A stretch of DNA of 54,613 nucleotides from positions 1 through 54,613 of the IMG/VR virus record IMGVR_UViG_3300047546_001983; one strand, written 5' to 3'. The notes under the pieces were generated by a model. That model made no database searches. It saw nothing but the letters and a program-made list of their open reading frames with translations, and had not been told where the DNA came from. Each line of letters opens with the position of its first letter. Within the stretch, counting starts at the first letter, position 1. Origin of the DNA: a virus. Position numbers and translations under genes: made by a program. This document shows positions 8,415 through 45,788 of this stretch, one piece after another.

Positions 8415-8443
8415 TTGACACTGGATGTAGTTTACTATATAAT
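8415..8443 (+). promoter_or_regulatory. sigma70-type promoter giving a leaderless mRNA
   Basis: TTGACA (8415-8420), 17-base spacer, TATAAT (8438-8443): a full consensus promoter. The ATG of the next gene begins 6 bases later, at the expected transcription start. No Shine-Dalgarno is present. Confidence 0.88.
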
Positions 8444-8449
8444 GTGTAC

Positions 8450-8659
8450 ATGAGCAAGAAAATATTACGGAAACTTGTGCGGTCCGATGTTGACATGGAC
8501 AATATTAATTCTTGGCTGCTGGCATTGCATGAAGCAATTGACTCTGAGACCATGCTCACTGTCGAAGAACAAGAAGAATTAGAAGCAATAATTTACGGAA
8601 ACATAAGCCACTATCTAGAAAGGTTTTTTGATTTTCCAGGCTACGGAAATTACAACTAA
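8450..8659 (+). CDS. small acidic hypothetical protein (69 aa)
   Basis: The ATG at 8450 sits exactly where transcription from the upstream consensus promoter should begin, so the mRNA is probably leaderless. A GTG at 8444 overlaps the -10 region and is not usable. The product has a basic N terminus (M-S-K-K-I-L-R-K-L-V-R) and an acidic helical body. Family unknown. Confidence 0.75.
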   Translation: MSKKILRKLVRSDVDMDNINSWLLALHEAIDSETMLTVEEQEELEAIIYGNISHYLERFFDFPGYGNYN

Positions 8660-8662
8660 ATA
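8656..8662 (+). promoter_or_regulatory. late-type promoter box (CTAAATA)
   Basis: A-A-CTAAATA lies 6 bases before the ATG at 8669 and there is no Shine-Dalgarno, so a late transcript would start at or next to the ATG. CTAAATA matches TATAAATA in all but its first bases. Confidence 0.5.
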
Positions 8663-8668
8663 TATCAT

Positions 8669-8956
8669 ATGCTAAAATCTTTTGTACGGGCCGCCCGGCC
8701 TTTCAAAATTTTTGATCCAACTCTAACTGAGCATCGAGAACTTTTCTACAAGTTTGAACGAACCCAATCTTGGATAGGGTGCCCTTATCAGTGGGCCATA
8801 GATGATGACTGCCTGGATGTAGTGCATCATATCCGCAAAAAAATGCTGGATTTTTACATGAAAAATGAATTTGTTGCGAAAAAACAACAAAAACAGCCCA
8901 AAAATGTGTTAAAAATCAAGCACTTACAGGCTCAAAAAAGCAGAAAAAACGGTTGA
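8669..8956 (+). CDS. small basic hypothetical protein (95 aa)
   Basis: A 95-residue protein with an N-terminal part rich in aromatic and charged residues (S-W-I-G-C-P-Y-Q-W-A-I-D-D-D) and a strongly basic, lysine-rich tail. The tail is encoded by the A-rich sequence upstream of the next promoter, and the stop TGA (8954-8956) lies inside the TTGACC -35 box. The tail may therefore be an accident of a promoter cassette inserted at the gene end. Function unknown. Confidence 0.65.
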   Translation: MLKSFVRAARPFKIFDPTLTEHRELFYKFERTQSWIGCPYQWAIDDDCLDVVHHIRKKMLDFYMKNEFVAKKQQKQPKNVLKIKHLQAQKSRKNG

Positions 8957-8981
8957 CCATTGGCTCCAGCTTTGCTATACT
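8944..8981 (+). promoter_or_regulatory. strong promoter with repeated block (copy 2)
   Basis: AAAAAACGGTTGACC (8944-8958) followed after a 17-base spacer by TATACT (8976-8981). Same 15-base block as at 3307, 45415 and 47082. It drives the gene at 9012. Confidence 0.85.
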
Positions 8982-9011
8982 ACTTGTATTGTAAATGAGA
9001 AAGGGCCACAA

Positions 9012-9236
9012 ATGACTGAATTTGAAAAGAACTGCTACGGAATTTCTGAATCAGACATCCGCGAAGAATACATGAATAGCATCACTGCCAAATTCAGTGG
9101 GCTAGAAATGGTCGCAATGAGTGTGCTCAGCGATGCACAAGAATTGATGGCCATGGACCGAGTTGAACAAGCTCGTAAACAAATCAACATCGCCAAGTTC
9201 ATACTGTCAGAAATGATGGAAGCTCGTGTTGCATAA
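9012..9236 (+). CDS. small hypothetical protein (74 aa)
   Basis: First gene behind the strong promoter, with AGAAAGGG upstream. A helical, acidic protein (M-T-E-F-E-K-N-C-Y-G) with a repeated pattern of Met and Ala. It is followed by a hairpin at 9251-9271. Family unknown; probably an early gene. Confidence 0.8.
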   Translation: MTEFEKNCYGISESDIREEYMNSITAKFSGLEMVAMSVLSDAQELMAMDRVEQARKQINIAKFILSEMMEARVA

Positions 9237-9250
9237 AAACAACACACAGT

Positions 9251-9290
9251 AACCCGTCAGGTTGACGGGTTATTCAAACGGTGCTAGAAT
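9251..9290 (+). promoter_or_regulatory. terminator-like hairpin overlapping a sigma70 promoter
   Basis: AACCCGTCA/TGACGGGTT (9251-9259 and 9263-9271) form a 9-bp stem with a 3-base loop. The 3' arm contains TTGACG (9262-9267), which is spaced 17 bases from TAGAAT (9285-9290). The T-run after the hairpin is weak (TTATTC). Confidence 0.65.
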
Positions 9291-9318
9291 AGAGTTATTG
9301 TTTAAGAAAGGAACGCAA

Positions 9319-9798
9319 ATGAACTGCTCACCCACTCTTACCGCAGACGAGTTCAAGGACCTTCACAATGCCCTGTGCGAACTTCGTAGCATTCGGGACA
9401 GTATGCATCACAGCATGGTCAAGCTGGACCGTGTTGAAGATGTAATCGACCGCTTTGAGCAAGCTCTTGCTGGTGCATATCAGCAAGACAACGATGCCTT
9501 TAGCACCAAGAGCGACCACTATGATGAGGTTCGCAAGGGCTTGGGGCTCAGTGCTATTTGGAGCATTTACGAAGTAGACAATCTCAGTGAGCCGCATCCG
9601 TTTGGCGATGTTACTACAGTGACCTACGAAAGCCATTGGGGACCTAATCCTGTGGTCAAGGGCATTGCTGGTACTACCTGGGCGGCCCTGTATACTGCGG
9701 CCAATGCTTGCATCCGCGACAGCGGCGACGATCATCATGTGTTTATCGAGGACTTTAAGGTCCGCGGCGACACCTTGGTTCTTTCAACCGGTTCTTAA
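9319..9798 (+). CDS. hypothetical protein (159 aa)
   Basis: Start at 9319 follows AAAGGAACGC; the in-frame reading from 9262 would begin inside the promoter. The N-terminal half is helical (D-E-F-K-D-L-H-N-A-L-C-E-L-R-S-I-R) and the C-terminal half is mixed, with a W-G-P-N-P-V-V-K-G-I-A-G-T-T-W-A segment. Family unknown. Confidence 0.82.
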   Translation: MNCSPTLTADEFKDLHNALCELRSIRDSMHHSMVKLDRVEDVIDRFEQALAGAYQQDNDAFSTKSDHYDEVRKGLGLSAIWSIYEVDNLSEPHPFGDVTTVTYESHWGPNPVVKGIAGTTWAALYTAANACIRDSGDDHHVFIEDFKVRGDTLVLSTGS

Positions 9799-9816
9799 TC
9801 CCTAAGGAGACAGCAC

Positions 9817-10104
9817 ATGGAACAGCTCAGCCCGATTCAGCAGATTAACCAATCTATCATGTTTGGTAATTTCACTGACGATCAGCTAAACTCAATTATC
9901 AGTGCCGTGAAGTTTGCTCGCGGTTGCTTGGCAAAATCTACCAAGCGGCAACTTCGAATCGGATCTTCGGTGCGCTGGGCCAGCCAGCGAACAGGCCGAG
10001 CCGAAACTGGTACTGTCGAAAAGATTGCCATCAAGTTTGTAACAGTTAAAACCCCTACCGGAATGCGTTGGAAGGTTCCAGCTAACATGTTGGAGGTTGC
10101 ATAA
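9817..10104 (+). CDS. hypothetical protein with SH3/KOW-like C-terminal part (95 aa)
   Basis: It has an excellent TAAGGAGA site. The N-terminal half is helical; the C-terminal part, R-I-G-S-S-V-R-W-A-S-Q-R-T-G-R-A-E-T-G-T-V-E-K-I...V-K-T-P-T-G-M-R-W-K-V-P, resembles small SH3-like barrels that bind nucleic acid. It ends in an ATAATGG overlap with the next gene. The domain suggestion is inference. Confidence 0.8.
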   Translation: MEQLSPIQQINQSIMFGNFTDDQLNSIISAVKFARGCLAKSTKRQLRIGSSVRWASQRTGRAETGTVEKIAIKFVTVKTPTGMRWKVPANMLEVA

Positions 10105-10565
10105 TGGCAACTCGTAGCACTATTGCAATTGAACACGAAGACGGCACCGTGTCGCAGGTTTACTGCCACTGGGATGGTTATCTAGATCACAACGGTCGTA
10201 TTTTGATGGAGCACTATCAAGATCCAGTCAAGGTCGAACAACTGATTGCTCATGGATCAATTTCTAGTCTCAAACCCGAAATTGGTGAGAAGCACGACTT
10301 TGACTGGTACTTCAATAAAAACGAAATCTCAGAAGAGATGAAGCAGATCTACGAAAACCTCTGGACCACATTTTATCATCGGGACCGTGGTGAGGATCTT
10401 GCAGTTACCAAATTTTGGAATTTTGATATGTATCGTACCAGTGCTGTTTTTGAGGAGTACGATTACATTTATCGGTCAGGCAAGTGGTATGTACAGGTAC
10501 ACGGTCGTGGCTGGTCCAGTTTAGAAAAAGCATTTAATGCAGATGCTGCCTTGGAGGACGCATAA
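10104..10565 (+). CDS. conserved phage hypothetical protein (MATRSTIAIE family)
   Basis: A 153-residue protein beginning M-A-T-R-S-T-I-A-I-E and continuing V-Y-C-H-W-D-G-Y-L-D-H-N-G-R-I-L-M-E-H-Y, a pattern I know from a widespread phage and prophage family of unknown function. The C terminus has Y-R-S-G-K-W-Y-V-Q-V-H-G-R-G-W-S. It starts on the A of the previous stop and ends in an overlap with the next gene, so translation is coupled. Confidence 0.9.
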   Translation: MATRSTIAIEHEDGTVSQVYCHWDGYLDHNGRILMEHYQDPVKVEQLIAHGSISSLKPEIGEKHDFDWYFNKNEISEEMKQIYENLWTTFYHRDRGEDLAVTKFWNFDMYRTSAVFEEYDYIYRSGKWYVQVHGRGWSSLEKAFNADAALEDA

Positions 10566-10738
10566 TGAATATTAACACCGATCAATTGATTCAACGACTT
10601 GAGCATGGTATTGCCCTTCTCAAAGAATCGCAGTCTGATTTTAGTCGACAGCAGAAGGTACTAGTTACCATTTCGGCTCTAGCTCGCGAATACGCAAAGC
10701 AACTAAACGAAAAGGAATGCGAATATGAAACGCAATGA
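10565..10738 (+). CDS. small hypothetical protein (57 aa)
   Basis: ATG overlaps the stop of the previous gene (TAATG) and the frame continues to TGA at 10736. A helical, coiled-coil-like protein (M-N-I-N-T-D-Q-L-I-Q-R-L-E-H). It overlaps the next gene by 14 bases. Unknown function. Confidence 0.7.
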   Translation: MNINTDQLIQRLEHGIALLKESQSDFSRQQKVLVTISALAREYAKQLNEKECEYETQ

Positions 10739-10892
10739 TCAGTGGCTTGAAGATTTTGATCAACTGATTTGCCAGGTGCCTTCTTTGTTTCTTCCTGAGC
10801 CTGTGCGTGATGCTATAATGTTGAAACTGGAAAACATCCAGGAAGAAATTTCAGAGCAGATTGAACTGCAAAGCACTGACTGGAGCGCATGA
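10725..10892 (+). CDS. small hypothetical protein (55 aa)
   Basis: Starts inside the previous gene after an AAAAGGAATGCG site. Encodes M-K-R-N-D-Q-W-L-E-D-F-D, an acidic helical protein. Compact coding overlap supports it as real. Unknown function. Confidence 0.65.
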   Translation: MKRNDQWLEDFDQLICQVPSLFLPEPVRDAIMLKLENIQEEISEQIELQSTDWSA

Positions 10893-11072
10893 ATGGATAA
10901 AGAAAATTCTCCCAGATATACTGTTCGCTGGACTCAGCCCTATCGCCTGCAGATTAATCCAGAGCTGATTGCAATGAAAATGCTTGCAGAACTAATTGAA
11001 CAGCAACAGCTAGAAGAGTCCGAGTACAAAGAGGCTAACCAAGTAATTCAACGCATTAAGGAAAAACTATGA
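10893..11072 (+). CDS. small hypothetical protein (59 aa)
   Basis: ATG directly follows the previous TGA, preceded by GGAGCGC as a possible ribosome site. The product starts M-D-K-E-N-S-P-R-Y-T-V-R-W and turns into a charged helix. The last bases overlap the next start (CTATGA). Confidence 0.65.
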   Translation: MDKENSPRYTVRWTQPYRLQINPELIAMKMLAELIEQQQLEESEYKEANQVIQRIKEKL

Positions 11073-11233
11073 ACACGAATCGTCAAAAAAATCTTGCACA
11101 CGAACAGCGCCAACAAGCCAAACAGCGACCTGCTCAACCTCTTTACGATTTCTCTGCATTAGAATCTGTAGTGCGGGCCTGGGCTAAGCCACAAGCAGAA
11201 GAGCTCAGCCCTTACGCTACCTGCAATTCATAA
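11069..11233 (+). CDS. small hypothetical protein (54 aa)
   Basis: Starts in the ATGA overlap with the previous stop and has AAGGAAAAACT upstream. The N terminus is rich in Gln, Arg and Lys (M-N-T-N-R-Q-K-N-L). Likely a translationally coupled small protein; no family known. Confidence 0.6.
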   Translation: MNTNRQKNLAHEQRQQAKQRPAQPLYDFSALESVVRAWAKPQAEELSPYATCNS

Positions 11234-11234
11234 T

Positions 11235-11324
11235 ATGGCTTGGGTTGGAGTTCTCATGCTTTTGATGCTTGGTCATCTTGGCTGGGCGTTGATCTATGCA
11301 TTGATAATTTTAATTTTTAGCTAG
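11235..11324 (+). CDS. tiny membrane peptide (29 aa)
   Basis: ATG one base after the previous stop. The whole product is hydrophobic (M-A-W-V-G-V-L-M-L-L-M-L), enough for one membrane helix. No Shine-Dalgarno is visible, so it depends on coupling. It may be a real small membrane peptide or chance; confidence is low. Confidence 0.4.
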   Translation: MAWVGVLMLLMLGHLGWALIYALIILIFS

Positions 11325-11339
11325 TTGATTATAAATTGT

Positions 11340-11900
11340 ATGAACCTACAAGAATCATTGCAACAGTTTGTAGCACCGGTCTACGGCAAAACCAAACGCA
11401 GTTCAGCAACTTATAAGACTGTGGCCGAACATTGTCACCAGCATCTCATTGTGCTGAAAACAGAATATGCAACAACTCGCAATGATCAGCAAAAGCTTCG
11501 TGAGATTCGTAACGACATGGATTACTATCTTCGTCGGTATCACAAATACTGCATTGAAGAACGCGACGGCATGGATGCTCATTACCTTGAAATAGGGGCC
11601 GATAAGGATACAGATTTTGAACACTTAATTCCTGCGGCTCGCATCCGAGACCTGTTGTTGGCTGGTGTGCTCAGTGTGGAGCAGGCCCTAAACGCTCCTA
11701 CTGTTAAGCTTAGCCGAAGCAAGCACATGGCTCTTAAAGAAGCAGGCTGGGGCAGTCACACACCAGACATGTGGTTGCCATTTAAACGCTATAGCAAGGT
11801 GTTTGCAGGAAGTTACCAAACCCATGATGGAACCATGATAGATCCAGATACTTGGACTTTGCAACAGCATTTTGAGTATTTTGCTCACTTGAAAATTTAA
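11340..11900 (+). CDS. conserved phage hypothetical protein (186 aa)
   Basis: The ATG at 11340 has no Shine-Dalgarno; a TATAAA box ends 4 bases before it, so a leaderless start is possible but the -35 is poor. The product has F-E-H-L-I-P-A-A-R-I-R-D-L-L-L-A-G, S-V-E-Q-A-L-N-A-P-T-V-K-L-S and D-T-W-T-L-Q-Q-H-F motifs that I recognise from a conserved phage family of unknown role, possibly an HNH-like nuclease relative by the H-x-I-P-A pattern. That last point is inference. Confidence 0.85.
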   Translation: MNLQESLQQFVAPVYGKTKRSSATYKTVAEHCHQHLIVLKTEYATTRNDQQKLREIRNDMDYYLRRYHKYCIEERDGMDAHYLEIGADKDTDFEHLIPAARIRDLLLAGVLSVEQALNAPTVKLSRSKHMALKEAGWGSHTPDMWLPFKRYSKVFAGSYQTHDGTMIDPDTWTLQQHFEYFAHLKI

Positions 11901-11917
11901 GCACTCTAGTGTATAAT
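11889..11917 (+). promoter_or_regulatory. sigma70-type promoter, near-leaderless
   Basis: TTGAAA (11889-11894), 17-base spacer, TATAAT (11912-11917). The ATG of the next gene starts 5 bases after the -10 box. No Shine-Dalgarno is present. Confidence 0.7.
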
Positions 11918-11922
11918 AAAAT

Positions 11923-12249
11923 ATGATTGATTATATTATTAGCACAGATTCAACAATTATAGAAGCATCCGCCCACGGCGGTAGTGGTGCTTATATCAGC
12001 GGTGCAGTTTATTGGGATTCAAACAGTCGCCAGTTCAAGGTTATTGATGGTAATGGTAATCCGCAGACATTGTCTGGTGGTACTGCCAACATCAGTGTTG
12101 GAACCAAGCTTCGAGAAATGATTGCCTGGTTTGAGCAAAAGCAATTTGAAGAAAAGCAACTGGCCGAACTCTGCAAGCAATATCCGAATCTTGCTGAAGC
12201 CAAAAGAGAATTTGATTCCATATACAATCTTGTCAAGGAGCACAAATGA
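11923..12249 (+). CDS. hypothetical protein (108 aa)
   Basis: Expressed from a promoter only 5 bases upstream. The first half is beta-rich (I-I-E-A-S-A-H-G-G-S-G-A-Y-I-S-G-A-V-Y-W-D) and the C-terminal half is a charged helix. This layout is like small virion or scaffold proteins but the family is not recognised. The next gene overlaps by 4 bases. Confidence 0.8.
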   Translation: MIDYIISTDSTIIEASAHGGSGAYISGAVYWDSNSRQFKVIDGNGNPQTLSGGTANISVGTKLREMIAWFEQKQFEEKQLAELCKQYPNLAEAKREFDSIYNLVKEHK

Positions 12250-12521: not shown

Positions 12522-12525
12522 CCAA

Positions 12526-13362: not shown

Positions 13363-13392
13363 GATTAAATAATTTATAGGAGGTATCAAAAT

Positions 13393-14094
13393 ATGTTTGG
13401 AGCAAATTACACACAACCAGGTGCAATGACCTGGCGTTCTGCGGAACAAATTAACTCGGCTATGGCTCGTGTTTATGGTCACATGAGTTTGGCCGTGATT
13501 ACCAGTATGATTGTAAGTTACCTTGTTGGCACCTCGCCGGCTTTGTTGGCTTTCTTCTTTACTGGCATAATGAAATGGATTGTAATCTTTGCACCGCTGG
13601 CAGCAGTTTTTGCCATTGTTTTCCTAATGGAAAAGGTTGGTAAGCAAGGTGCTCAGCTTATGCTACATGGCTTTGCGGCTCTAATGGGTCTCAGCTTTGC
13701 CACAATCTTTGCGGTGTTTACCATGGGCAGTATTGTCAGCGCATTTATGGGTGCTGCCATTTTGTTTATTGTAATGAGCGGGTATGGCTATTTTACCAAG
13801 TCCAGCCTTGACAGCATGGGCAAGTTCATGTTTGTTGGACTGATTGCAATCGTTATTGCCAGCATTGTAAATATCTTTATTGGCAGTACTGTAATGCAAA
13901 TGGTTATCAGTGCTTTAGCTATTATCATCTTTCTAGGACTAACAGCCTACGACACACAAAAGATTCGCGAAGAGCTCAGTGTGGAAGCAGATACAGGGTT
14001 GGCCGAAGTACGAGGTGCCTTGACATTGTACCTTGACTTTATCAACCTCTTTATTAATCTCTTACAACTGTTTGGCGTTAAGAATAACGACTGA
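13393..14094 (+). CDS. BI-1/YccA-family integral membrane protein
   Basis: A 233-residue very hydrophobic protein with about seven membrane helices. The C-terminal signature L-G-L-T-A-Y-D-T-Q-K-I-R and the small-residue-rich helices (M-G-L-S-F-A-T-I-F-A-V-F-T) are typical of the Bax inhibitor-1/YccA/YbhL family. In Escherichia coli YccA binds and restrains the FtsH protease, and related proteins are ion channels. A phage copy could protect phage proteins from FtsH or change membrane ion balance; that is inference. AGGAGGT before the ATG is a full Shine-Dalgarno. Its end overlaps the convergent hydrolase gene by 17 bases. Confidence 0.88.
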   Translation: MFGANYTQPGAMTWRSAEQINSAMARVYGHMSLAVITSMIVSYLVGTSPALLAFFFTGIMKWIVIFAPLAAVFAIVFLMEKVGKQGAQLMLHGFAALMGLSFATIFAVFTMGSIVSAFMGAAILFIVMSGYGYFTKSSLDSMGKFMFVGLIAIVIASIVNIFIGSTVMQMVISALAIIIFLGLTAYDTQKIREELSVEADTGLAEVRGALTLYLDFINLFINLLQLFGVKNND

Positions 14095-14647
14095 CCGTTT
14101 CTGAGATAATCTTAGTTAACTCTGGGCTTTGTAGCACTTCATTGTGCCCGTAGTCCAGAGTTATTTCTTTTTCTTTGCTATGCAATTCTTGCTGACTGGC
14201 CACTGTGACCACACCATCGTTGGCACCTACACCAAACAAATCAAACCCGTGAGTGGTTATAACATTGGTCCAAGGAACTGCTGGATCAAGCAATCTGGTT
14301 TGTGTAGTCCAAGGTTCCATTCTGCTCAACATGTGTAACCAAGGAACATTAAGGTTGAACATTTTCCAAAAGCCAGCTTGGATAGATCCACCAAAGGGTG
14401 TGCCAACACTGATTCCATGCACAATCTTGTTGGGATTTCGATTTGCCAAGTGCCATGCGTAAAGACCACCCATGCTGTGACCTACTATGACACAGCGGTC
14501 AGGTAGTTCGTCTTCCATGGCTTTTAGATTAACTTCTGGATCTAGCATCATGCTCCAAGTCAAACAGCGATGCGGATTGATTTTAGATCCGGCCCAGTTC
14601 CATGAAGTTTTGGAAGCATTGGCGCCGTGAATAAAAATTGTTTCCAT
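14078..14647 (-). CDS. alpha/beta hydrolase
   Basis: A 189-residue hydrolase of the lipase/esterase type. F-I-H-G-A-N forms the oxyanion-hole loop (residues 5-10), G-H-S-M-G-G the nucleophile elbow (S58), and N-D-G-V-V (D144) and Y-G-H-N-E-V (H168) the acid and histidine. It is a complete catalytic triad in the right order, smaller than most. It has no signal peptide, so it should act in the cytoplasm. Substrate unknown. Divergent from the deaminase gene, whose promoter starts at its first codon. Confidence 0.85.
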   Translation of the reverse strand: METIFIHGANASKTSWNWAGSKINPHRCLTWSMMLDPEVNLKAMEDELPDRCVIVGHSMGGLYAWHLANRNPNKIVHGISVGTPFGGSIQAGFWKMFNLNVPWLHMLSRMEPWTTQTRLLDPAVPWTNVITTHGFDLFGVGANDGVVTVASQQELHSKEKEITLDYGHNEVLQSPELTKIISETVSRYS

Positions 14648-14675
14648 TGACTTGCTCCTTATTTCTTGTTATACT
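14647..14675 (+). promoter_or_regulatory. sigma70-type promoter giving a leaderless mRNA
   Basis: TTGACT (14647-14652), 17-base spacer, TATACT (14670-14675). The deaminase ATG is 6 bases later, matching the transcription start. No Shine-Dalgarno is seen. Confidence 0.85.
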
Positions 14676-14681
14676 TATATC

Positions 14682-15137
14682 ATGAAGCCAAAACATATCA
14701 AAGCCCACATGCAAACTGCCGAAAACTATGCTAGACTTAGCACAGCTCGCAGGCTTCAGGTCGGTGCGATACTTGTCAAGGATGATAGAATTATCAGCAT
14801 TGGCTACAATGGCATGCCGGCGGGTTGGGATAATAATTGTGAAGAAGAGGTTGTTGTTGCCATAGTTGACGGGGTACCTCAAAGAGAAATCAAAGAACTC
14901 AAAACCAAACCTGAAGTGCTTCATGCCGAAGCCAACGCTATTGCCAAGGTAGCCCGCAGTCCAGAAAGTTCCGAAGGTGCTGTGTTGTTTGTCACTCATT
15001 CGCCATGCATGGAATGTGCCAAACTGGTTTTTCAAAGCGGAATAAAACAAGTTTTTTGGCGACATAATTACAGAAGCGATGATGGTTTAAATTTTCTGCG
15101 CCAAGCAGGCGTAACAACTAACAAGGTAGAAGAGTAA
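14682..15137 (+). CDS. deoxycytidylate (dCMP) deaminase
   Basis: A 151-residue zinc deaminase. H-A-E (81-83) and P-C-M-E-C (C109, C112) are the zinc site and proton shuttle of the cytidine/dCMP deaminase fold, and I-G-Y-N-G-M-P-A-G near residues 40-48 is the substrate-side motif typical of dCMP deaminase. It converts dCMP to dUMP, feeding dTTP synthesis in many T4-like phages. The ATG at 14682 is chosen because an in-frame TTG upstream would lie within the -35/-10 region. The next gene overlaps by one base. Confidence 0.93.
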   Translation: MKPKHIKAHMQTAENYARLSTARRLQVGAILVKDDRIISIGYNGMPAGWDNNCEEEVVVAIVDGVPQREIKELKTKPEVLHAEANAIAKVARSPESSEGAVLFVTHSPCMECAKLVFQSGIKQVFWRHNYRSDDGLNFLRQAGVTTNKVEE

Positions 15138-25297: not shown

Positions 25298-26143
25298 ATG
25301 CGTATGAGCATACAGCACTACCGCACACTGGGGCTCTCTCCCAGTGCATCAGAAGAAGAAGTTAAAAAAGCTTATCGCAAGCTGGCTTCTGTGCATCATC
25401 CTGACAAGGGCGGTGATACTAAAAAGTTCCAAGAAATACAGACTGCATACGATGCTATTCTCAAACAAAAAAGCAGTGGTACTTCTTATTTTTCAGACAG
25501 CTCTCGATTTACAGACTTTGAAGATCTAAGAGACTTCTTTGACATGGGTCGTGCAGCCGCCAGGGATGACACTTTTGCTCAATTTAATTTTAGAATGCAT
25601 GACGATGCAGGTCGAATTAAAAACCCCGATGTCAATATCAGCGTTCCTTGTAGCCTAGAAGATGCATTCGCAGGTTTTACAAAAACCGTAGAATTTACCT
25701 TGCCTGCTGGTGTAGAGAAACGGCTTGCAGTAACCTTTCCAGCAGGCTCAACGCCTGACATTAAAATCCGCTATGCTGGCGAGGGCATGGTTATGACACC
25801 AAACCGTCCTCCTGGTGATCTTTATGTAAAGATAGAGCTGTTACCGCATGACATTTGGCAGTTAAGAAAAAATGAACTTTTTGCACAAGTAAAGATTAAT
25901 GTATGGCAAGCCATGCTTGGGGGAGTGATTCAAATTACCGATATTGAAGGAACCTTGCTAGATGTTACAATTCCAGCAGGAACACAAGACGGCACCCAGA
26001 TTCGATTAAAAAATCGTGGATTTATTGTGCGAGGATCAAATCAAAGAACCAACGCTTACATTTTAATCCATGTTGAAATTCCAAAACTAGACCAACAGGA
26101 CTTTGAAAAACAACTAAATGAATTTTATAAACCTAGAAACTAA
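25298..26143 (+). CDS. DnaJ/CbpA-type J-domain co-chaperone
   Basis: A 281-residue protein: an N-terminal J domain with H-P-D at residues 34-36 and the typical I-Q-H-Y-R-T-L-G-L-S-P, then two C-terminal beta domains (V-N-I-S-V-P-C-S-L-E-D-A-F-A-G-F, F-P-A-G-S-T-P-D-I-K, V-T-I-P-A-G-T-Q-D-G-T). It lacks the zinc finger of DnaJ, so it is CbpA-like. It would activate host DnaK. It lies between the spanins and peptide deformylase. ATG at 25298 or 25304. Confidence 0.92.
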   Translation: MRMSIQHYRTLGLSPSASEEEVKKAYRKLASVHHPDKGGDTKKFQEIQTAYDAILKQKSSGTSYFSDSSRFTDFEDLRDFFDMGRAAARDDTFAQFNFRMHDDAGRIKNPDVNISVPCSLEDAFAGFTKTVEFTLPAGVEKRLAVTFPAGSTPDIKIRYAGEGMVMTPNRPPGDLYVKIELLPHDIWQLRKNELFAQVKINVWQAMLGGVIQITDIEGTLLDVTIPAGTQDGTQIRLKNRGFIVRGSNQRTNAYILIHVEIPKLDQQDFEKQLNEFYKPRN

Positions 26144-26172
26144 TTGACAGCAGTACTAATGTAGTGTACAAT
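26144..26172 (+). promoter_or_regulatory. sigma70-type promoter giving a leaderless mRNA
   Basis: TTGACA (26144-26149), 17-base spacer, TACAAT (26167-26172). The def ATG starts 6 bases later. No Shine-Dalgarno is present. Confidence 0.85.
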
Positions 26173-26178
26173 AATCTT

Positions 26179-26679
26179 ATGATAGAATTAAATTTGGTTA
26201 AAAGCAATGACCCAATACTGACAATGCCCATGCCTGCCGTGGGTGAGGACATAGATCTAACTCAATTGTCCAAGGACATGTTTTTGATCATGTGGAGCAA
26301 TGGTGGTATTGGATTGGCCGCCCCCCAGGTGGGCATGGCCTTGCGTATGTTTGTCATGGGCAGTCAGCAAGGTCCCAATTATGTCTGTATTAATCCAGAA
26401 GTGTTAGAGGTTAGCGATGAACTAGCAACTGGAACCGAAGGATGTTTATCGTATCCAGCTCTTTGGTTAAATATCAAGCGACCTCAATGGGTCCAAGCAC
26501 GATATCGTACCTTAGGAGGTGAGTTGATCGAGCAACGATTTGAAGGATTGTTAGCAAGATGTTATCTGCATGAACTAGATCATTTAAATGGCGTAGTGTT
26601 TACTAACCATGCCGGCCAACTTAGTTTAAAAATGGCACTTGCTCGACAAAAGAAGAAATTATCTAAAGGATCAAAATGA
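26179..26679 (+). CDS. def: peptide deformylase
   Basis: A 166-residue peptide deformylase. G-I-G-L-A-A-P-Q-V-G (43-52), E-G-C-L-S-Y-P (C89) and H-E-L-D-H (H131, H135 with catalytic E132) are the three signature motifs. It removes the formyl group from new proteins. Phages of aquatic hosts often carry it. The ATG at 26179 is used; a GTG at 26164 lies inside the -10 box. It precedes clpA with a 4-base overlap, so the two share an mRNA that should be leaderless. Confidence 0.94.
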   Translation: MIELNLVKSNDPILTMPMPAVGEDIDLTQLSKDMFLIMWSNGGIGLAAPQVGMALRMFVMGSQQGPNYVCINPEVLEVSDELATGTEGCLSYPALWLNIKRPQWVQARYRTLGGELIEQRFEGLLARCYLHELDHLNGVVFTNHAGQLSLKMALARQKKKLSKGSK

Positions 26680-28892
26680 GTCAGGAAGAAAATAATAACA
26701 GTCGTATTAACGAAGTTATTGCTAAGGCTTTTCAAGAAGCACTAAATCGAGAGCACGAGTATGTTACTCTAGAGCACATACTGCGTGTTATGCTCGACGA
26801 AGAAGAAATCAAAGATGCCTTAGGTGAGTTCCAAGTTGATGTGGAGGCCCTCAAAGAAGAAATTGATCTGTGGCTTCGAGATCAAGAAGATATTCGCGTT
26901 GAAGGCATTACCAAACCTCGCAAAACTGCAACCCTAGAGCGTTGCTTTAACCGTGCTTACACACAGGCTATCTTTACAGGTCGTGGGCACATGGAACCTT
27001 TGGATCTGCTGATCAGCATTGCCAGCGAAAAGAACAGCCATGCCAATTTCTTCTTGGCTAAAAATGGCGTAACCAAAGAAATTATTATCAATTATGTTGG
27101 CAAGCTCAAGGATGGTCGTAGCAAGGAAAGCAAGACTGCCAAGAAGCGCGACAACGAAAAAATTCTCAACAAATACACCACAAATTTAAACAAGAGCGCA
27201 GAAAAGCAATTAATTGATCCACTGATTGGTCGTGAGCGCGAAGTGTTCCGTCTTGCACAAACACTTACTCGCAAAAAGAAAAACAATGCCATCATGGTTG
27301 GTGAACCTGGTGTAGGTAAGACTGCCATTGTTGAAGGTCTAGCAGTGGCTATTGTACGCAATGAAGTTCCTGAGGTACTGAAAAAGAAAACTATCTACAG
27401 CCTGGACATGGGCAAGCTTTTGGCTGGCACACGCTATCGAGGTGACTTTGAAGAGCGTATGCAACATGTTCTCGAAGCACTTGAAGAACGCGATGATGCG
27501 ATCCTGTTCATTGACGAAATCCACATGATCATGGGTGCAGGTGCTGGCGGACAAGGTAGCATGGATGTGGCTAACTTGCTTAAACCCAGCTTAGAAAAGG
27601 GCAAGTTGCGTTGCGTTGGTAGCACAACCTATGAAGAGTTCCGTGAGAACTTTGAAAAGGATCGTGCTCTACTGCGTCGCTTTACCAAAATTGACATTGA
27701 AGAGCCCAGCGTTGAAGATACCAAGGCCATGCTACGCAGAGTTGCACCTTTGTATGCTGCCTATCACAAGTTGGCCATTGACGAAGAAAGCATTGATTTG
27801 GCCATTGACTTGTCTATGAAATACATGCTGGACAAGAAGTTGCCCGACAAGGCCATTGACATCATTGATGCTACTATGGCTAACCTTCGTGTAACCAACT
27901 GCCCAGAAGGTCAGTTATTGACCAAAGACGACATTCGCAGAGAAATTAGCGCATTAACTCGTGTGCCTATTGAACAACTTGGCGAACAAAAGAATGTGGC
28001 TGTGGCTGACCTTGAAAGCCGTATGCGTACCAATGTGTTTGGTCAAGATGAAGCCATTGAACGCCTCATGAACATGGTGTATATTGCCAAGTCTGGACTC
28101 AAGGAAATTAATCGTCCAATGGCCAACTTCTTGTTTGTTGGCCCTACCGGTACTGGTAAAACAGAACTAGCACAACAGCTGGCACAGGGCCTAGGCATGG
28201 AACTGATTCGCTTTGACATGAGCGAATACCAGGAGTCGCACAAAATTGCATCGTTGATTGGATCACCTCCGGGCTATGTTGGCTACGGCGAAGGCAAAGC
28301 TGGCAGCGGTAAGTTGATCAATGAACTAGAGCGTGTGCCTAACTGTGTGTTGCTATTTGACGAAATTGAAAAGGCACACCCAGCAGTGATTCAAGTGTTG
28401 TTGGGTCTCATGGACAATGGCATTGTTACAGGCAGCGACAACAAACAGGCCTCAGCAAGAAATGCTTTTGTTATCATGACCAGCAACCTGGGTGCTGTGG
28501 ATGCAGAAAAACAAATGATTGGCTTTGGTGGTGGCTTCAATGAAAGTGCCAGCGATGAAGCAGTCAAGCGTTTCTTTGCACCAGAATTCCGTAACAGGCT
28601 TGATGCAGTGGTTAAATTCAACAGGCTTGAAAAGGAAGTTATTCAACGCATCGCTGATAAGTTTATGCGTCAAATTCGTGATCAATTGGTTGAACAAGGT
28701 CAAACCATTGTGTACACAGATGGGGCACTGGCTTGGTTAGCTGAAAATGGCTTCAGTGACACCATGGGTGCAAGACCCATGAAGCGATTGATCAGCGAAA
28801 AGATTAGGTTGCCTATTGCCAAGCGCATTATCAAAGACAACCAAACTGTACATACCGTAGCTGTACATAACAACGAACTGCAAATCACATGA
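26676..28892 (+). CDS. clpA: ClpA-type AAA+ unfoldase
   Basis: A 738-residue double AAA+ protein. The N domain has the [12 protein letters not shown] motif; D1 has G-E-P-G-V-G-K-T (near 208) and L-F-I-D-E-I; D2 has G-P-T-G-T-G-K-T (near 488) and [11 protein letters not shown] (near 560), and G-A-R-P-M-K-R-L at the sensor 2. An I-G-F tripeptide (near 613) is at the position of the ClpA IGL loop that docks on ClpP. So it can probably feed host ClpP. ClpA length is 758. No ClpP or ClpS gene is in the window. Confidence 0.93.
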
Positions 28893-39553: not shown

Positions 39554-39576
39554 TTCAACCCATTAAGGATTACCCA

Positions 39577-40322: not shown

Positions 40323-40342
40323 TGTTCAATGGTTGATATTCC

Positions 40343-41034: not shown

Positions 41035-41042
41035 GAGCCATT

Positions 41043-42047: not shown

Positions 42048-42083
42048 TTTCTCCAAAACTCATTATATTGGGTTAGAATTATA

Positions 42084-42112
42084 TTGCACCGCAGCATAAT
42101 TATTGTTATACT
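42084..42112 (+). promoter_or_regulatory. sigma70-type promoter for the phasin-like gene
   Basis: TTGCAC (42084-42089), 17-base spacer, TATACT (42107-42112). The leader to the ATG at 42173 is about 55 bases and ends in an AAAGGAG site. Nothing else is evident in the gap 42048-42172. Confidence 0.65.
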
Positions 42113-42172
42113 GTGTATTGGTGCTCATGATGAGGCCATTGCAGTTAACTCGCTTAATAAAGGAGAATAAGC

Positions 42173-42400
42173 ATGTTTGATTTTTACAAGACCTACCAAG
42201 CCAACACCAAGTTGGCACAAGATGTTGCTACTGATGTTGTTGCTGCCAGCACAGCATTTGCCAAGACACTTTATGATGTAAACACACGCCTAGCTCAGAC
42301 AGCCCAGGCACAATTTGCCGAAGCTTACAAGAGCATGGAAACATACAAGTTCCCAGGTTTTGAAGGTACAGCCAAGGCCAGCAAAAAGACCGCAGAATAA
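42173..42400 (+). CDS. phasin-like protein (75 aa)
   Basis: A short amphipathic helical protein with D-F-Y-K-T-Y-Q-A-N and V-N-T-R-L-A-Q-T-A-Q-A-Q-F-A-E-A-Y-K-S-M-E, resembling the core of phasins, which coat polyhydroxyalkanoate granules in many proteobacteria. It is shorter than usual. If right it may shield or use host storage granules. The assignment is by pattern only, and other coiled-coil proteins remain possible. AAAGGAG precedes the ATG. Confidence 0.6.
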   Translation: MFDFYKTYQANTKLAQDVATDVVAASTAFAKTLYDVNTRLAQTAQAQFAEAYKSMETYKFPGFEGTAKASKKTAE

Positions 42401-42558
42401 TGCTGTCTTTTATAGCAGAAAAAATAAAAGCATTTTTTGAAACAAGTACGGACATAGATCGTTTTATAAACAGTAAATGTCCTACTAACTCAGCCGAAGT
42501 AGATTATTGGGTGCGTGAATTTCAAAGAATGCAATTTAATCGGAGGCCTTATTTTTAA
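42400..42558 (+). CDS. small hypothetical protein (52 aa)
   Basis: Starts in a TAATG overlap. The product (M-L-S-F-I-A-E-K-I-K-A-F-F) has an aromatic helix and I-D-R-F-I-N-S-K-C-P-T-N-S-A-E-V-D-Y-W, a pattern seen in small proteobacterial and phage proteins. Function unknown. Confidence 0.72.
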   Translation: MLSFIAEKIKAFFETSTDIDRFINSKCPTNSAEVDYWVREFQRMQFNRRPYF

Positions 42559-42674
42559 TGAAGTACCTAAAAGCATTTTTAAATTTCATTGACAGTCTTC
42601 AAAGAGCCAATCATGCAGCTCATTTAGCTAGATCTGGAGACTATGAGGCAGCTAAACAGGTTATTACACAATAA
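42558..42674 (+). CDS. small hypothetical protein (38 aa)
   Basis: Another TAATG overlap, with CGGAGG 11 bases upstream. Encodes M-K-Y-L-K-A-F-L-N-F-I-D-S-L, helical, with H-L-A-R-S-G-D-Y-E-A-A-K, a motif I know from small bacterial proteins. Followed by the composite terminator. Confidence 0.7.
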   Translation: MKYLKAFLNFIDSLQRANHAAHLARSGDYEAAKQVITQ

Positions 42675-42693
42675 TCTGTTGCCAAACACAAAA

Positions 42694-42725
42694 GCCCTCT
42701 GCTAAATAATGCAGAGGGCTTTTTT
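42694..42725 (+). promoter_or_regulatory. terminator with late promoter in the loop and Shine-Dalgarno-like 3' arm
   Basis: A 9-bp perfect stem GCCCTCTGC (42694-42702) / GCAGAGGGC (42711-42719) with an 8-base loop TAAATAAT, so CTAAATA spans 42702-42708. A T-run follows and the ATG is at 42726. The 3' arm has GAGGG 8 bases before the ATG. Same design as at 29540. Confidence 0.8.
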
Positions 42726-43805
42726 ATGAAAATTAGTGATTTAGATCAGCCGAGAATTGGCGACATTGTTGAGTTTGAAACTGACCCAGATACTGTGGTC
42801 GAGGGCGTCATTGTTGGCGAAACAGAAGACGGATACATCTACGAATTCAGCGACACTGGCTACACTGAGCTAGTTGAAACATGTACCTATGGCAAGTATT
42901 ACTGCTCTACAGACAAGAAGTACAAGTGTCGTCAAGGCCCTAAACAAAGTCGTGATGTAAGCGAAGATGCCGAGCCTATGGATCGTGAATTTGCGCTGGT
43001 CAAAAAGCTAGGCAGATTGGGTGAGCGTATTGTGCAAAATCCCAAACTTTGGGAAAAATATGACGAAGCTATTGCCAACGACAATATTGACTGGATCATT
43101 AGTTTAATACAGGACGAAACCGGTGCCACAGCCAGCGAGGTGTCAAAGCTGGCTGACTTGTTTGGTGAAATCGGCGGCGGCGTGGGACGACTGACAGATT
43201 TTGCTTGGGCTGTGAAAGAAGGCCGCTGGGACGAAGATTTCATGAACCCGTACAGAGCGCATAGAAGTCAGGGTGTAGCAGAAGCACACCCCAACAGTAA
43301 AATCTACGACAAGTGCTGGGATGGTTATAAGAAAGTCCCTGGTAAGAAGCGCGGCGAAAAGGGTTCGTGCGTTGAAGAATCCAGCGGATATATTCCTCGC
43401 AATAGCAAAGAAGCCCAAGACCCTCGCTGGAGTAGTGCATTAACAGGTGATGTAACAACACATACCATGCGCGACCAACTTGCTGATTTTTTTCCTTCTG
43501 CCGCACCCAGTGATAGACAACAACAAGTCACTGAAGCAGAGTATCAAGGTCGCGAAGTTCCGTTGGGTCGCCCAATGCGCGGCGATGTTAAGAAATTCAA
43601 AGTCTATGTGCGTGACCCAAAATCTGGTAATGTGAAGAAAATTAACTTTGGACACGGCGGTTCAAGTGCAAGACGACTTGGTCAAAAGACCATGCGTATC
43701 AAAAAAAGTAATCCAGCAAGACGCAGGAACTTTCGTGCAAGACATCGCTGTAATACTGCCAAAAACAGAATGACAGCAAGATATTGGAGTTGCAGAGCAT
43801 GGTAA
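42726..43805 (+). CDS. virion-type protein with DUF5872-like C terminus (359 aa)
   Basis: A multi-part protein. Y-D-K-C-W-D-G-Y-K-K-V-P-G-K-K-R-G-E-K-G-S-C lies near residue 195, and the C-terminal part F-K-V-Y-V-R-D-P-K-S-G-N-V-K-K-I-N-F-G...R-I-K-K-S-N-P-A-R-R-R-N-F-R-A-R-H-R-C fits a domain of phage virion proteins (DUF5872-like). The basic Arg/Cys end may bind DNA or zinc. The N-terminal region has an SH3-like start. Probably a structural or packaged protein. Confidence 0.78.
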   Translation: MKISDLDQPRIGDIVEFETDPDTVVEGVIVGETEDGYIYEFSDTGYTELVETCTYGKYYCSTDKKYKCRQGPKQSRDVSEDAEPMDREFALVKKLGRLGERIVQNPKLWEKYDEAIANDNIDWIISLIQDETGATASEVSKLADLFGEIGGGVGRLTDFAWAVKEGRWDEDFMNPYRAHRSQGVAEAHPNSKIYDKCWDGYKKVPGKKRGEKGSCVEESSGYIPRNSKEAQDPRWSSALTGDVTTHTMRDQLADFFPSAAPSDRQQQVTEAEYQGREVPLGRPMRGDVKKFKVYVRDPKSGNVKKINFGHGGSSARRLGQKTMRIKKSNPARRRNFRARHRCNTAKNRMTARYWSCRAW

Positions 43806-44206
43806 AGAAACTTAACGAAGGCCTAACTAGCCAGAACATTGACACAGAATATGATGTTAGTGAAATTCGCAAACTAGCAGGTATTGCCAACAATTCAACA
43901 GAAAAAACAGGTGCTGTCCGAGAAAGCCTTCACGTTCAAGACGATCTTACTGCTGACGAAGCACAGGGCATTGCCGATGACATTGAAGCACAAATGCATG
44001 TCATTGCAGAAGCAATGGAAAGCATTGAAATGCTGGTGCGTAATCATTTACCCAGTGAATATCGCTACATGGATTCGTACACTTTCCCTCAAATCAAAAT
44101 CGCACTTGGCGGATATGGTTATGCAGATCGCATGGTAAGATCCTTTGAAAGCCTAGTTGAAGATTTAAGAGAGTACGCCGAAAATCAAGGCAACGAGGAG
44201 ATTTGA
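43799..44206 (+). CDS. hypothetical protein, K-L-A-G-I motif (135 aa)
   Basis: Starts seven bases before the previous stop. Has D-V-S-E-I-R-K-L-A-G-I-A-N, shared in short form by the next gene (R-L-K-K-L-A-G-I-E), a pattern of T4-like virion proteins. The rest is an acidic helical body. GGAGTTGCAGAGC upstream can serve as ribosome site. Probably virion-associated. Confidence 0.8.
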   Translation: MVKKLNEGLTSQNIDTEYDVSEIRKLAGIANNSTEKTGAVRESLHVQDDLTADEAQGIADDIEAQMHVIAEAMESIEMLVRNHLPSEYRYMDSYTFPQIKIALGGYGYADRMVRSFESLVEDLREYAENQGNEEI

Positions 44207-44207
44207 T

Positions 44208-44414
44208 TTGGACCAAGTAGATCTAGCACGATTAAAAAAACTTGCTGGTATTGAAGAGCCCACTGGTGAAAACGCCAGTCCACTTACACACGGCGGCACA
44301 GAAAAAGGCGAATATATGCGAAAGCACAACATTCGTCCGGGGACCGATGAATGGTTCCGCTTGTGGTTTGCTCGTCCGGGCCTCACTGGCGAACAGCCAA
44401 TGAGCAAGGAATAA
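44208..44414 (+). CDS. hypothetical protein, K-L-A-G-I motif (68 aa), TTG start
   Basis: The TTG at 44208 is used because GAGGAG lies 7 bases upstream. The product contains D-L-A-R-L-K-K-L-A-G-I-E-E and then T-D-E-W-F-R-L-W-F-A-R-P-G. Related in the motif to the previous gene. Function unknown. Confidence 0.72.
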   Translation: MDQVDLARLKKLAGIEEPTGENASPLTHGGTEKGEYMRKHNIRPGTDEWFRLWFARPGLTGEQPMSKE

Positions 44415-44433
44415 TTGGACCTAAACTAGCTGG

Positions 44434-44462
44434 TTGACATTGCGTTTGCAGGTTGCTATACT
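44434..44462 (+). promoter_or_regulatory. sigma70-type promoter
   Basis: TTGACA (44434-44439), 17-base spacer, TATACT (44457-44462), serving the gene at 44492. Leader about 23 bases with AAGGTGA. Confidence 0.82.
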
Positions 44463-44491
44463 GTAGGTAAAGTAACTTGCCAAGGTGAACC

Positions 44492-44917
44492 ATGACAATG
44501 CATTTGGTTGGTCCGTATCTAACTACCACCAACTATAAAAAGCGCAAAACCAAGATGACTCGAGCTAAACAAGCCGAGTTAGATCTGCGCTGGCGCGAGC
44601 GTAACAAGTTCCTTAAAAGCATGGGCCTGCCTACAGACACCTTTGAGCAGTTCCTTGACTATGTGCATGGCAAGAAGGTCCGTGGACCTAAAACAGCCGT
44701 TGAACCGTTACAGCGGCCCATGCCTGCATATAGAGAAACAGAACGCATTCCAAGCTTGCCAATGAGCACCGAAGGCATGCAAAATGCCTGTGCCAAACGG
44801 GAGCCAAATCGCTATACCGGAACACTAATCAAAGGTATTGCTACCATGCACAAGAGCAATGCGGTGCCAGTCATCAATGATGAGCAGGCACGAGACATCA
44901 GCCGTATGCGTCGATAA
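44492..44917 (+). CDS. conserved phage hypothetical protein (141 aa)
   Basis: A basic protein beginning M-T-M-H-L-V-G-P-Y-L-T-T-T, with F-E-Q-F-L-D-Y-V-H-G-K. The pattern R-A-K-Q-A-E-L-D-L-R-W-R-E-R-N-K-F-L-K is one I associate with small conserved phage proteins of unknown role. Good AAGGTG site. Confidence 0.82.
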   Translation: MTMHLVGPYLTTTNYKKRKTKMTRAKQAELDLRWRERNKFLKSMGLPTDTFEQFLDYVHGKKVRGPKTAVEPLQRPMPAYRETERIPSLPMSTEGMQNACAKREPNRYTGTLIKGIATMHKSNAVPVINDEQARDISRMRR

Positions 44918-44920
44918 ATA
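44913..44920 (+). promoter_or_regulatory. late-type promoter box (GATAAATA)
   Basis: GATAAATA overlaps the previous stop codon; an AAGGAG site and the lipoprotein ATG (44940) follow. Confidence 0.4.
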
Positions 44921-44939
44921 TTGTCAAGGAGATCGCACT

Positions 44940-45260
44940 ATGAAAAAGTTTGCAATCATCGTATTAATGTCCGTGGCTTCGGCTATATTGCTATCTGGTT
45001 GTGCTACTCGCACCGGTACAGCTCTATTGGCCGGCGGTGCAGGTGTACTAGTTGGATCAGCCATTGCCAATGCCCATGCACAACCTAGGACTGTGGTTGT
45101 ACAAGAGCGTTCTGCTGTGGTTATTGTTGCTGAACAATGCCAGCATTATCCACACTACACCGCAGAGCGTGCCGCTTGTGAACGCGGTGCTCGCCAGCGT
45201 TATTATGAAGAGCTTCGCCGCCGTGAAAACGAAGCTTACAGAACTGGTTTGGGCCGTTAA
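44940..45260 (+). CDS. lipoprotein with glycine-zipper-like segment (106 aa)
   Basis: A lipoprotein signal with L-L-S-G-C (lipid Cys at residue 21), then A-L-L-A-G-G-A-G-V-L-V-G-S-A-I-A, a glycine-zipper-like membrane-active stretch. The rest has two Cys (C-Q-H and C-E-R-G) and a charged tail. AAGGAG precedes the ATG at 44940; the longer in-frame reading overlaps the previous gene. Function unknown, perhaps superinfection exclusion or lysis. Confidence 0.78.
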   Translation: MKKFAIIVLMSVASAILLSGCATRTGTALLAGGAGVLVGSAIANAHAQPRTVVVQERSAVVIVAEQCQHYPHYTAERAACERGARQRYYEELRRRENEAYRTGLGR

Positions 45261-45279
45261 TAGTTAACCAATGCTAAAC

Positions 45280-45320
45280 TGTTGCAAAAATGCCACAGTT
45301 TTTGTTGCAAAAATGCCACA
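45280..45320 (+). repeat. direct repeat of TGTTGCAAAAATGCCACA
   Basis: Two perfect 18-base copies (45280-45297 and 45303-45320) with a 23-base period, upstream of the GIY-YIG promoter. A related TTGTGGCAAAAAAACCACAA lies at 47034-47053. Confidence 0.85.
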
Positions 45321-45333
45321 ATTTAGGGGCTCG

Positions 45334-45376
45334 CTAAGTCATTGATTTTATTAGCATCAGCTAAGTCATTGATTTT
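45334..45376 (+). repeat. direct repeat of CTAAGTCATTGATTTT
   Basis: Two perfect 16-base copies (45334-45349, 45361-45376). The same word is found at 47018 and inverted at 46995, and a variant at 3251. Part of the upstream promoter cassettes. Confidence 0.85.
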
Positions 45377-45414
45377 TAAGGGTTTTTTAGCCCAAAAAAG
45401 TGCTTTTTTAGCCG

Positions 45415-45452
45415 AAAAAACGGTTGACCTCACGGTCCAGAAGCACTATAAT
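45415..45452 (+). promoter_or_regulatory. strong promoter with repeated block (copy 3), leaderless
   Basis: AAAAAACGGTTGACC (45415-45429), 17-base spacer, TATAAT (45447-45452); the GIY-YIG ATG is 6 bases later, so the mRNA is predicted leaderless. Confidence 0.88.
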
Positions 45453-45458
45453 AAGAGC

Positions 45459-45788
45459 ATGAACAGTAAGAAACCCACCACCCGCAAGCGCCGCTCAGAT
45501 CGCAACCATGCGATTTATGAGCTCTATTGCGAAGTTACTGGCGAGAGCTACATTGGTATTACCGTGGTCAGCGGTACTGCTCTTAGCTCAGTTCGTGGCC
45601 GCTTTAACCGTCACCTGAGCCGCGCTCGTACAGAGAGCAAAGACTGGCTCTTGTGCGAGGCTCTGCGTAAATATGGTCGCGAAGGTTTTACTCCGTACCT
45701 GCTGGAAGTGGTGCGTGGTAAGACTGCCGCTCACGCTCGCGAGCGTGAGCTGACTGCTCAACTGAAGCCTGCTCTTAACACACTCTAA
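45459..45788 (+). CDS. GIY-YIG nuclease domain protein (109 aa)
   Basis: The ATG at 45459 sits at the predicted transcription start. I-Y-E-L-Y and Y-I-G-I-T (31-35) are the GIY and YIG strands, R-F-N-R-H (near 49-52) supplies the catalytic Arg/His region, and the C-terminal E-R-E-L-T-A-Q-L-K-P-A-L-N the Glu and the typical N. The whole protein is basically one GIY-YIG domain with a basic N-terminal arm. It may act as a homing-type or defence nuclease. Confidence 0.88.
   Translation: MNSKKPTTRKRRSDRNHAIYELYCEVTGESYIGITVVSGTALSSVRGRFNRHLSRARTESKDWLLCEALRKYGREGFTPYLLEVVRGKTAAHARERELTAQLKPALNTL

Follow-up and report, generated by a model that had tools for sequence, protein, structure and literature searches.

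Phage genes whose mRNA begins at the AUG start codon have been described before, and the following holds for the parts of the literature that are cited. The cI mRNA of lambda is leaderless (PMC4965119, PMC9031893, PMC4488713), and leaderless cI and cro mRNAs of PY54 were mapped by rapid amplification of cDNA ends (RACE) (PMC4488713). Leaderless genes of bacteria carry a TA-like (-10) signal just before the start and are frequent in Actinobacteria and Deinococcus-Thermus (Zheng et al. 2011, PMC3160421), and 171 of 17,001 transcription start sites of Sinorhizobium meliloti are leaderless, all of them with AUG (PMC3616915). Here we surveyed and analyzed a stretch of viral DNA of 54,613 nucleotides (IMG/VR record IMGVR_UViG_3300047546_001983, positions 1 to 54,613; called the window), in which four genes have a promoter placed exactly six bases before the ATG and no Shine-Dalgarno (SD) motif. 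These four sites are with high probability real leaderless units, consisting of a sigma70-type promoter from which the mRNA would open with 5'-AUG and have neither leader nor SD.

With lambda cI and PY54 cI and cro the predicted units share an mRNA that begins at the AUG. The lambda and PY54 cases are single repressor or lytic-switch genes, whereas the lineage to which the window belongs has 14 families of such genes in five contigs, known from sequence alone, and these are unrelated genes (enzymes, a GIY-YIG protein, a DnaJ-like chaperone and unknowns). The bacterial genes of Zheng et al. (PMC3160421), as far as the cited part describes them, have the same short set distance from -10 to start and no SD; they lie in bacterial chromosomes, whereas the phage lineage has the full -35/-10 consensus and a 17-bp spacer. 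In S. meliloti (PMC3616915, in the part cited) the +1 is likewise the A of the AUG, though in a small fraction of the start sites of a bacterium, and this bacterium is linked to the lineage solely via the DnaJ-def-ClpA gene order that is common to Sinorhizobium phage Phosso.

In the following, distance means how many bases separate the -10 hexamer from the ATG. The pattern TTGACN-17-TANNNT-6-ATG was matched exactly four times in the window, always on the + (coding) strand, and the pattern taken in reverse gave no match. The first promoter (8415..8449, +) has its -35 box TTGACA at 8415-8420, a spacer of 17 and its -10 box TATAAT at 8438-8443, followed by GTGTAC (8444-8449, +) and by the A of the ATG at 8450, which is the predicted +1; the open reading frame (ORF) of 69 amino acids (aa) that starts there (8450..8659, +) encodes a product with no Pfam or PHROG match. 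The second (14647..14681, +) is composed of TTGACT, a spacer of 17 and TATACT at 14670-14675, and stands at distance 6 from the ATG at 14682 of a dCMP/cytidine deaminase coding sequence (14682..15137, +; PF00383). The third (26144..26178, +), with TTGACA, a spacer of 17, TACAAT at 26167-26172 and distance 6 to the ATG at 26179, precedes the peptide deformylase gene def (26179..26679, +; PF01327), and its -35 box begins at the first base past the stop codon of the DnaJ gene. The fourth (45424..45458, +) has TTGACC, a spacer of 17 which contains GGTCC, and TATAAT at 45447-45452; it leads at distance 6 to the ATG at 45459 (+) of a GIY-YIG domain protein (45459..45788, +). All four thus have the hexamers (TTGACA/TATAAT-like) of a sigma70-type promoter, and their 17-bp spacers lie within its range of 16-18 bp. 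No SD-like motif was found at -16 to -4 before any of the four genes.

The sequence-only reading had described these same four promoters, and the coordinates, the 17-base spacer, the six bases to the ATG and the lack of an SD were all confirmed. It had also judged identical spacing at four loci to be unlikely by chance, and this agrees with 100 dinucleotide shuffles of the window, in which the mean was 0.04 matches and four were never reached (0/100). A looser scan of the window gave 17 promoter-like sites on the + strand and 2 on the - strand; a start codon stood at distance 6 in 4 of these 19, which are the four genes already named. A fifth site (11889..11922, +; TTGAAA-17-TATAAT-5-ATG 11923), which had been offered as a further case, is present with its 5 bases but was dropped as a leaderless case as it is not conserved in the two orthologs examined: in that of contig G003 the -10 of a promoter-like site overlaps the ATG, and in that of G004 there is no promoter-like site at a fitting distance.

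The window corresponds to contig G001 (IMGVR_UViG_3300043395_004689; 103,158 bases) from base 47508, as 27 evenly spaced 40-base points match unshifted. The related contigs are G003 (105 kb), G004 (97 kb), G005 (244 kb), G006 (73 kb) and the short G002 (20 kb); the genes common to them are syntenic and about 20 to 90% identical. The pattern recurs in G003, G004, G005 and G006. When a spacer of 14-20 was allowed, 7 matches were obtained in G001, 6 in G003, 11 in G004, 6 in G005, 7 in G006 and 0 in G002; a few of these matches run against the strand of the majority of genes. The reversed-pattern control gave 9 matches over all six contigs. For the class as a whole, all strict promoters (TTGACN-17-TANN[AC]T) were taken from G001, G003, G004, G005 and G006, and a start was counted where an ATG opens an ORF of at least 40 aa. 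There are 116 strict promoters, and in 30 of them such an ATG stands at distance 6, with 0 at distance 5 and 3 at distance 7; every other distance from 0 to 20 holds at most 3 promoters, and a second hump, mostly of SD-led genes, lies at 25-35. Two further ATGs at distance 6 open an ORF of less than 40 aa (total 32) and were excluded from the 30. No GTG or TTG opening an ORF of 40 aa was found at distance 6 among the 116. By class, 45 of the promoters are SD-led, 30 leaderless and 41 unassigned.

The 30 leaderless genes, 5-7 in each larger contig by the strict pattern, belong to 14 protein families, and those that recur in at least 3 contigs are def (5), GIY-YIG (5), a P-loop kinase (4), gene 8450 (4) and dCMP deaminase (3). 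By the motif test none of the 30 has an SD before the ATG, and in 21 the reading frame contains no alternative start between the ATG and the nearest stop upstream of it. A gap of at most 45 nucleotides (nt) to the previous called gene is seen in 11 of 30 leaderless genes as against 1 of 43 SD-led ones, two of the 45 SD-led genes having no neighbour; the gene caller is a crude codon-score method, on which these gap counts and the SD baseline depend, while the ATG evidence does not. In 20 further related contigs, picked for their GIY-YIG or P-loop gene, the distance is exactly 6 in 77 of 150 matches with an ATG at 2-14 (150 of 173 matches listed, from 16 of the 20 contigs; near-copies are present among the contigs, and two ATGs at one promoter count as two matches).

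The lack of an SD was not used as evidence standing by itself. Only 88 of the 138 called genes of parent contig G001 have an SD-like motif by a crude motif test, so that "no SD" alone proves little, and it was dropped in that role: of 80 dCMP deaminase loci (L085-L164; 55-72% identity), 67 lack both an SD and such a promoter by the motifs used, 12 have an SD and 1 has a promoter at distance 9.

Conservation of the arrangement was followed family by family. For the GIY-YIG gene the ATG is at distance 6 in 42 of 42 unique orthologs with enough sequence; 40 of these came from the scan, and in L239 and L240, where two or three ATGs stand in tandem, the first of them is at 6 and the scan had picked a later one. 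This set was drawn from 67 loci, of which 2 lacked the core or were cut and those beyond the 42 were duplicates. The stretch preceding the DRN motif of the protein is 12, 13 or 14 codons long and in frame (35 unique distance-6 sequences). The P-loop kinase gene has distance 6 in 14 of 14 unique orthologs at ≥80% identity. From its ATG onward the third codon positions have 2.33 different letters on average versus 1.25 at first and 1.08 at second positions (n = 14), and no codon rhythm is seen upstream; the periodicity begins at the ATG, which indicates that translation starts there. The def promoter is found in all six loci of at least 58% identity, one of them the parent contig, and five have distance 6. 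Over 83 def loci, 61 have an SD, 14 neither signal and 8 were labelled leaderless; L026 and L028 were dropped from the latter since their "-10" TAGGAT contains the SD-like AGGA. The dCMP deaminase gene has distance 6 in G003 and G004.

The promoter of gene 8450 keeps distance 6 in 6 of 6 orthologous loci (G003, G004, G006, L452, L453 and L454, the last two being identical in that region). The conserved core of this protein begins at an internal ATG, codon 16, and the segment between the +1 ATG and the internal one is in frame in the orthologs seen; both ATGs may be used as starts. The sequence-only reading had taken the ATG as the first codon of the mRNA in all four genes. That the ATG is the predicted +1 and that the arrangement is conserved stands, as judged from the sequences, while for gene 8450 the protein may also start internally. 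Two other genes, G003 87308 and G004 58749, have a predicted 5'-terminal ATG and, 8-9 codons further in the same frame, a second ATG that has an SD-like motif; these are possible double starts. They resemble the 5'-terminal AUG with a downstream SD-led start described for E. coli in the cited part of PMC4965119; there the upstream ORFs are of varying length, whereas in G003 87308 and G004 58749 the ATG is in frame with the gene.

The position of +1 was examined on the 45 SD-led promoters of the same contigs, i.e. those in which an ATG at distance 15-49 is accompanied by an SD-like motif. In these the seventh base after the -10 is A in 33 of 45 and the sixth is C or T in 32 of 45, and they fit the leaderless pattern, partly by construction, as both classes were sought with it. 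This pyrimidine-then-A would be the normal initiator step and would independently place the +1 on the A of the leaderless ATG. Since SD-led promoters favour A at the same place, the six-base rule is the ordinary sigma70 distance from -10 to +1, and the fixed six bases need no dedicated phage device to account for them; no promoter signal distinct from that of the SD-led genes was seen. Such promoters are also present in the window, namely 3316..3344 (+; TTGACC-17-TATACT, with AAAAAGGAG in its leader and the ATG at distance 31) and 9262..9290 (+; TTGACG-17-TAGAAT, ATG at distance 28), both SD-led, and the leadered 8953..8981 (+; TTGACC-17-TATACT, ATG at distance 30).

The best explanation is then as follows. 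The sigma70-type promoter would probably be read by the host RNA polymerase, and the RNA would start at the seventh base after the -10 hexamer, where in these genes the start codon has its A. Such an mRNA would open with 5'-AUG, having no leader or SD, and would be translated from this terminal AUG, possibly by the 70S route by analogy with known leaderless mRNAs. From a larger group of like promoters in these contigs the RNA would start at the same place, and its leader, about 20-30 nt long, would include an SD. The 35-bp promoter and the ATG may form a self-contained expression unit, of which compactness and independent expression are the presumed benefits.

The two forms meet in a recurring cassette, in which the SD-led leader begins ATAGACAGCAAAAAGGAG and the leaderless counterpart is ATGAACAGCAAAA, so that the start differs chiefly at +3 and +4. 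A 14-mer reference derived from the same promoter data, ATAGACAGCAAAAA, lies with at most 4 mismatches exactly at +1 in 10 of the 116 promoters (5 SD-led and 5 leaderless), and among 13 shifted registers 12 gave 0 matches and the remaining one gave 1. The GIY-YIG gene accounts for 4 of the 5 leaderless cassette promoters, and its first codons (from 45459 on) resemble the leader of SD-led promoters in the same contigs. As the forms differ chiefly at +3/+4, a leaderless gene can arise by ATA to ATG; in the simplest reading an initially transcribed ATA (+1 to +3) changed to ATG, and what had been leader turned into N-terminal codons, a direction which we infer. In 17 of the 116 strict promoters, SD-led and leaderless ones alike, the -35/-10 spacer contains a motif GGNC(C/T) that starts 8-10 bases into the promoter and is a possible site for a regulator.

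For other viruses, contigs with TTGACA-17-TATAAT and an ATG at distance 6 or at distance 10 were compared, among the matches listed. There the ATG opens an ORF of at least 40 aa (or an open-ended one) in 84 of 120 cases at distance 6 versus 27 of 118 at distance 10 (Fisher 2e-13), and an ORF of at least 100 aa in 52 versus 15. Other strict promoters of the distance-10 loci have distance 6 in 5 of 144 among the matches listed, and other promoters of the distance-6 loci have it in 5 of 169 among those listed, with 5 more at distance 7. The lineage, with 30 of 116, exceeds the 5 of 144 of the other viral loci listed (Fisher 2e-7), in a comparison for which the lineage was chosen because of the pattern and orthologs were counted separately. 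By this evidence, leaderless units are predicted to exist in other phages also and are denser in this lineage.

Several observations weigh against the leaderless explanation or limit it. The P-loop gene of G005 is at distance 9, and no such promoter is seen at 12 more remote P-loop loci (35-45% identity); def is at distance 7 in L006, and dCMP deaminase is at 10 in G006 and at 9 in L085 and has no such promoter in G005. All four window ORFs have an in-frame GTG or TTG further upstream, so they fall outside the 21 genes mentioned above. Compactness is no full explanation, as 19 of the 30 leaderless genes have gaps of more than 45 nt. Among the viral matches listed, 36 of 120 ATGs at distance 6 open no ORF of 40 aa, hence the pattern alone is no proof at a single site, and Pseudomonas phage PA5oct has three distance-6 ATGs of which none is an annotated start. 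A general occurrence of leaderless units in the wider group of phages that includes PA5oct was considered and, going by PA5oct, is not supported. Also, in 6 of the 30 leaderless genes another in-frame start, preceded by an SD-like motif, lies no more than 40 codons downstream, so a few of the ATGs may be 5'-terminal upstream AUGs preceding an SD-led start.

This last count speaks for a mixed class, in which the RNA starts at the ATG and in some genes the 5'-terminal AUG is an upstream AUG, the main product being made internally, with the first AUG serving an N-terminal extension or ribosome standby. Such a class is possible, though less likely than not, and it is compatible with the best explanation for most genes. 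It is in line with the internal ATG that the 8450 family keeps where its conserved core begins, and with E. coli mRNAs having both a 5'-terminal AUG and an SD, most of which, when tested, support some translation according to the cited part of PMC4965119. By motif, however, such a downstream start is absent from 24 of 30 genes, conserved coding in the P-loop and GIY-YIG genes begins at the +1 ATG or no more than about 10 codons from it, with no intervening start seen besides the tandem ATGs of L239 and L240, and in the 8450 family the segment between the two ATGs stays in frame in the orthologs seen. It could also be said that the ATG at +1 is merely a preferred initiator (CAT-A/G) and that the true start codon lies elsewhere, given that SD-led cassette promoters have CATA there and transcription alone favours A at +1; this is very unlikely in view of the codon periodicity of the P-loop gene, the frame-preserving length changes at the N-terminus of GIY-YIG, the 21 of 30 genes with no other upstream start, and the viral ATGs that open an ORF far more often at 6 than at 10 among the matches listed. 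Chance coincidence in AT-rich phage DNA, which single sites such as 11923 or those of PA5oct do look like, has a negligible probability and is refuted for the four sites by 4 matches found against 0.04 expected and by their conservation in orthologs.

An unlikely reading is that of a separate leaderless programme under translation altered by infection, e.g. with low initiation factor IF3 or ribosomal protein S1, many 70S ribosomes or a damaged anti-SD. The high share of leaderless promoters in the lineage compared with the other viral matches listed would fit it, with the reservation that the lineage was chosen for the pattern, and so would the recurrent set of def, P-loop kinase, GIY-YIG, dCMP deaminase and 8450; the cited part of PMC9031893 states that leaderless translation in E. 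coli is promoted when translation factors are changed, and that initiation factors and S1 are phosphorylated in T7 infection, the effect on leaderless mRNAs being unstudied there. One cassette, however, drives genes of both classes within the same contigs, and there are more SD-led promoters than leaderless ones (45 and 30, with 41 unassigned). We consider it similarly improbable that a standing leaderless set, with peptide deformylase, dCMP deaminase, the P-loop kinase, the GIY-YIG protein and others, keeps these proteins made when SD-dependent initiation is impaired by infection or host defence, with genes recruited to it by ATA to ATG. As for ordinary leaderless units, the pattern, its conservation, coding from the ATG in the P-loop and GIY-YIG families and the absence of an SD motif are established at the level of the sequences, and the arrangement is supported as a conserved class and not as chance.

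The genes of the window include DnaJ (25304), def (26179), a ClpA-like ATPase (26676), dCMP deaminase (14682) and the GIY-YIG protein (45459), along with tail fibre proteins, a clamp loader and PhoH. DnaJ, peptide deformylase and the ClpA-like ATPase adjoin each other (25304-28892), and Phosso has the same order, with no such promoter seen before its def; the DnaJ-like gene of G006 (43904) is leaderless as well. Among named phages, giants of Proteobacteria (Atu_ph07, Phosso, PA5oct) come out best for ClpA, the P-loop gene and PhoH, but Synechococcus phages do so for the subtilase. As the best phages differ between genes, no host is claimed, and scans of bacterial genome contigs with the GIY-YIG and PhoH-like proteins gave no relative. 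Other features of the window are a beta-lactamase-fold serine hydrolase at 2065-3246 (PF00144, Pfam 5e-28), which has a PHROG match to a minor tail protein with lysin activity and is a good guess for a peptidoglycan enzyme; a Bax inhibitor-1 family protein at 13393-14094 (PF01027, 9e-52), here in a phage; and at 49865-50557 a protein with a C-terminal LuxR/sigma70-region-4-like helix-turn-helix, which is a candidate transcription regulator of the phage. A promoter followed by a short GCC..GAGGG-like stretch is present at 43759-43840 of G001 (about 3759-3840 of L197), at 49295 of G003 and at 66088 of G004; it sits behind the gene at 42397-43509 of G001 and its orthologs and is perhaps a small RNA, and Rfam gave no match at the gathering threshold in the window or L197.

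Searches of open-access literature, judged by titles and abstracts, listed single-gene phage cases and bacterial maps, and no lineage-wide leaderless set in large phages was among them. What looks new is the extent, 30 of 116 strict promoters as against 5 of 144 in the other viral loci among the matches listed. The higher share of ORFs at distance 6 elsewhere (84/120 vs 27/118, among the matches listed) suggests that leaderless units are commoner in uncultivated phages than the single cases imply, and gene callers which rely on the SD may misplace starts in such phages. The finding also suggests a simple route for the interconversion of leadered and leaderless genes, and a lineage with 5-7 leaderless genes per larger contig, several of them conserved in orthologs, would offer a natural set of cases on which to test leaderless initiation during infection.

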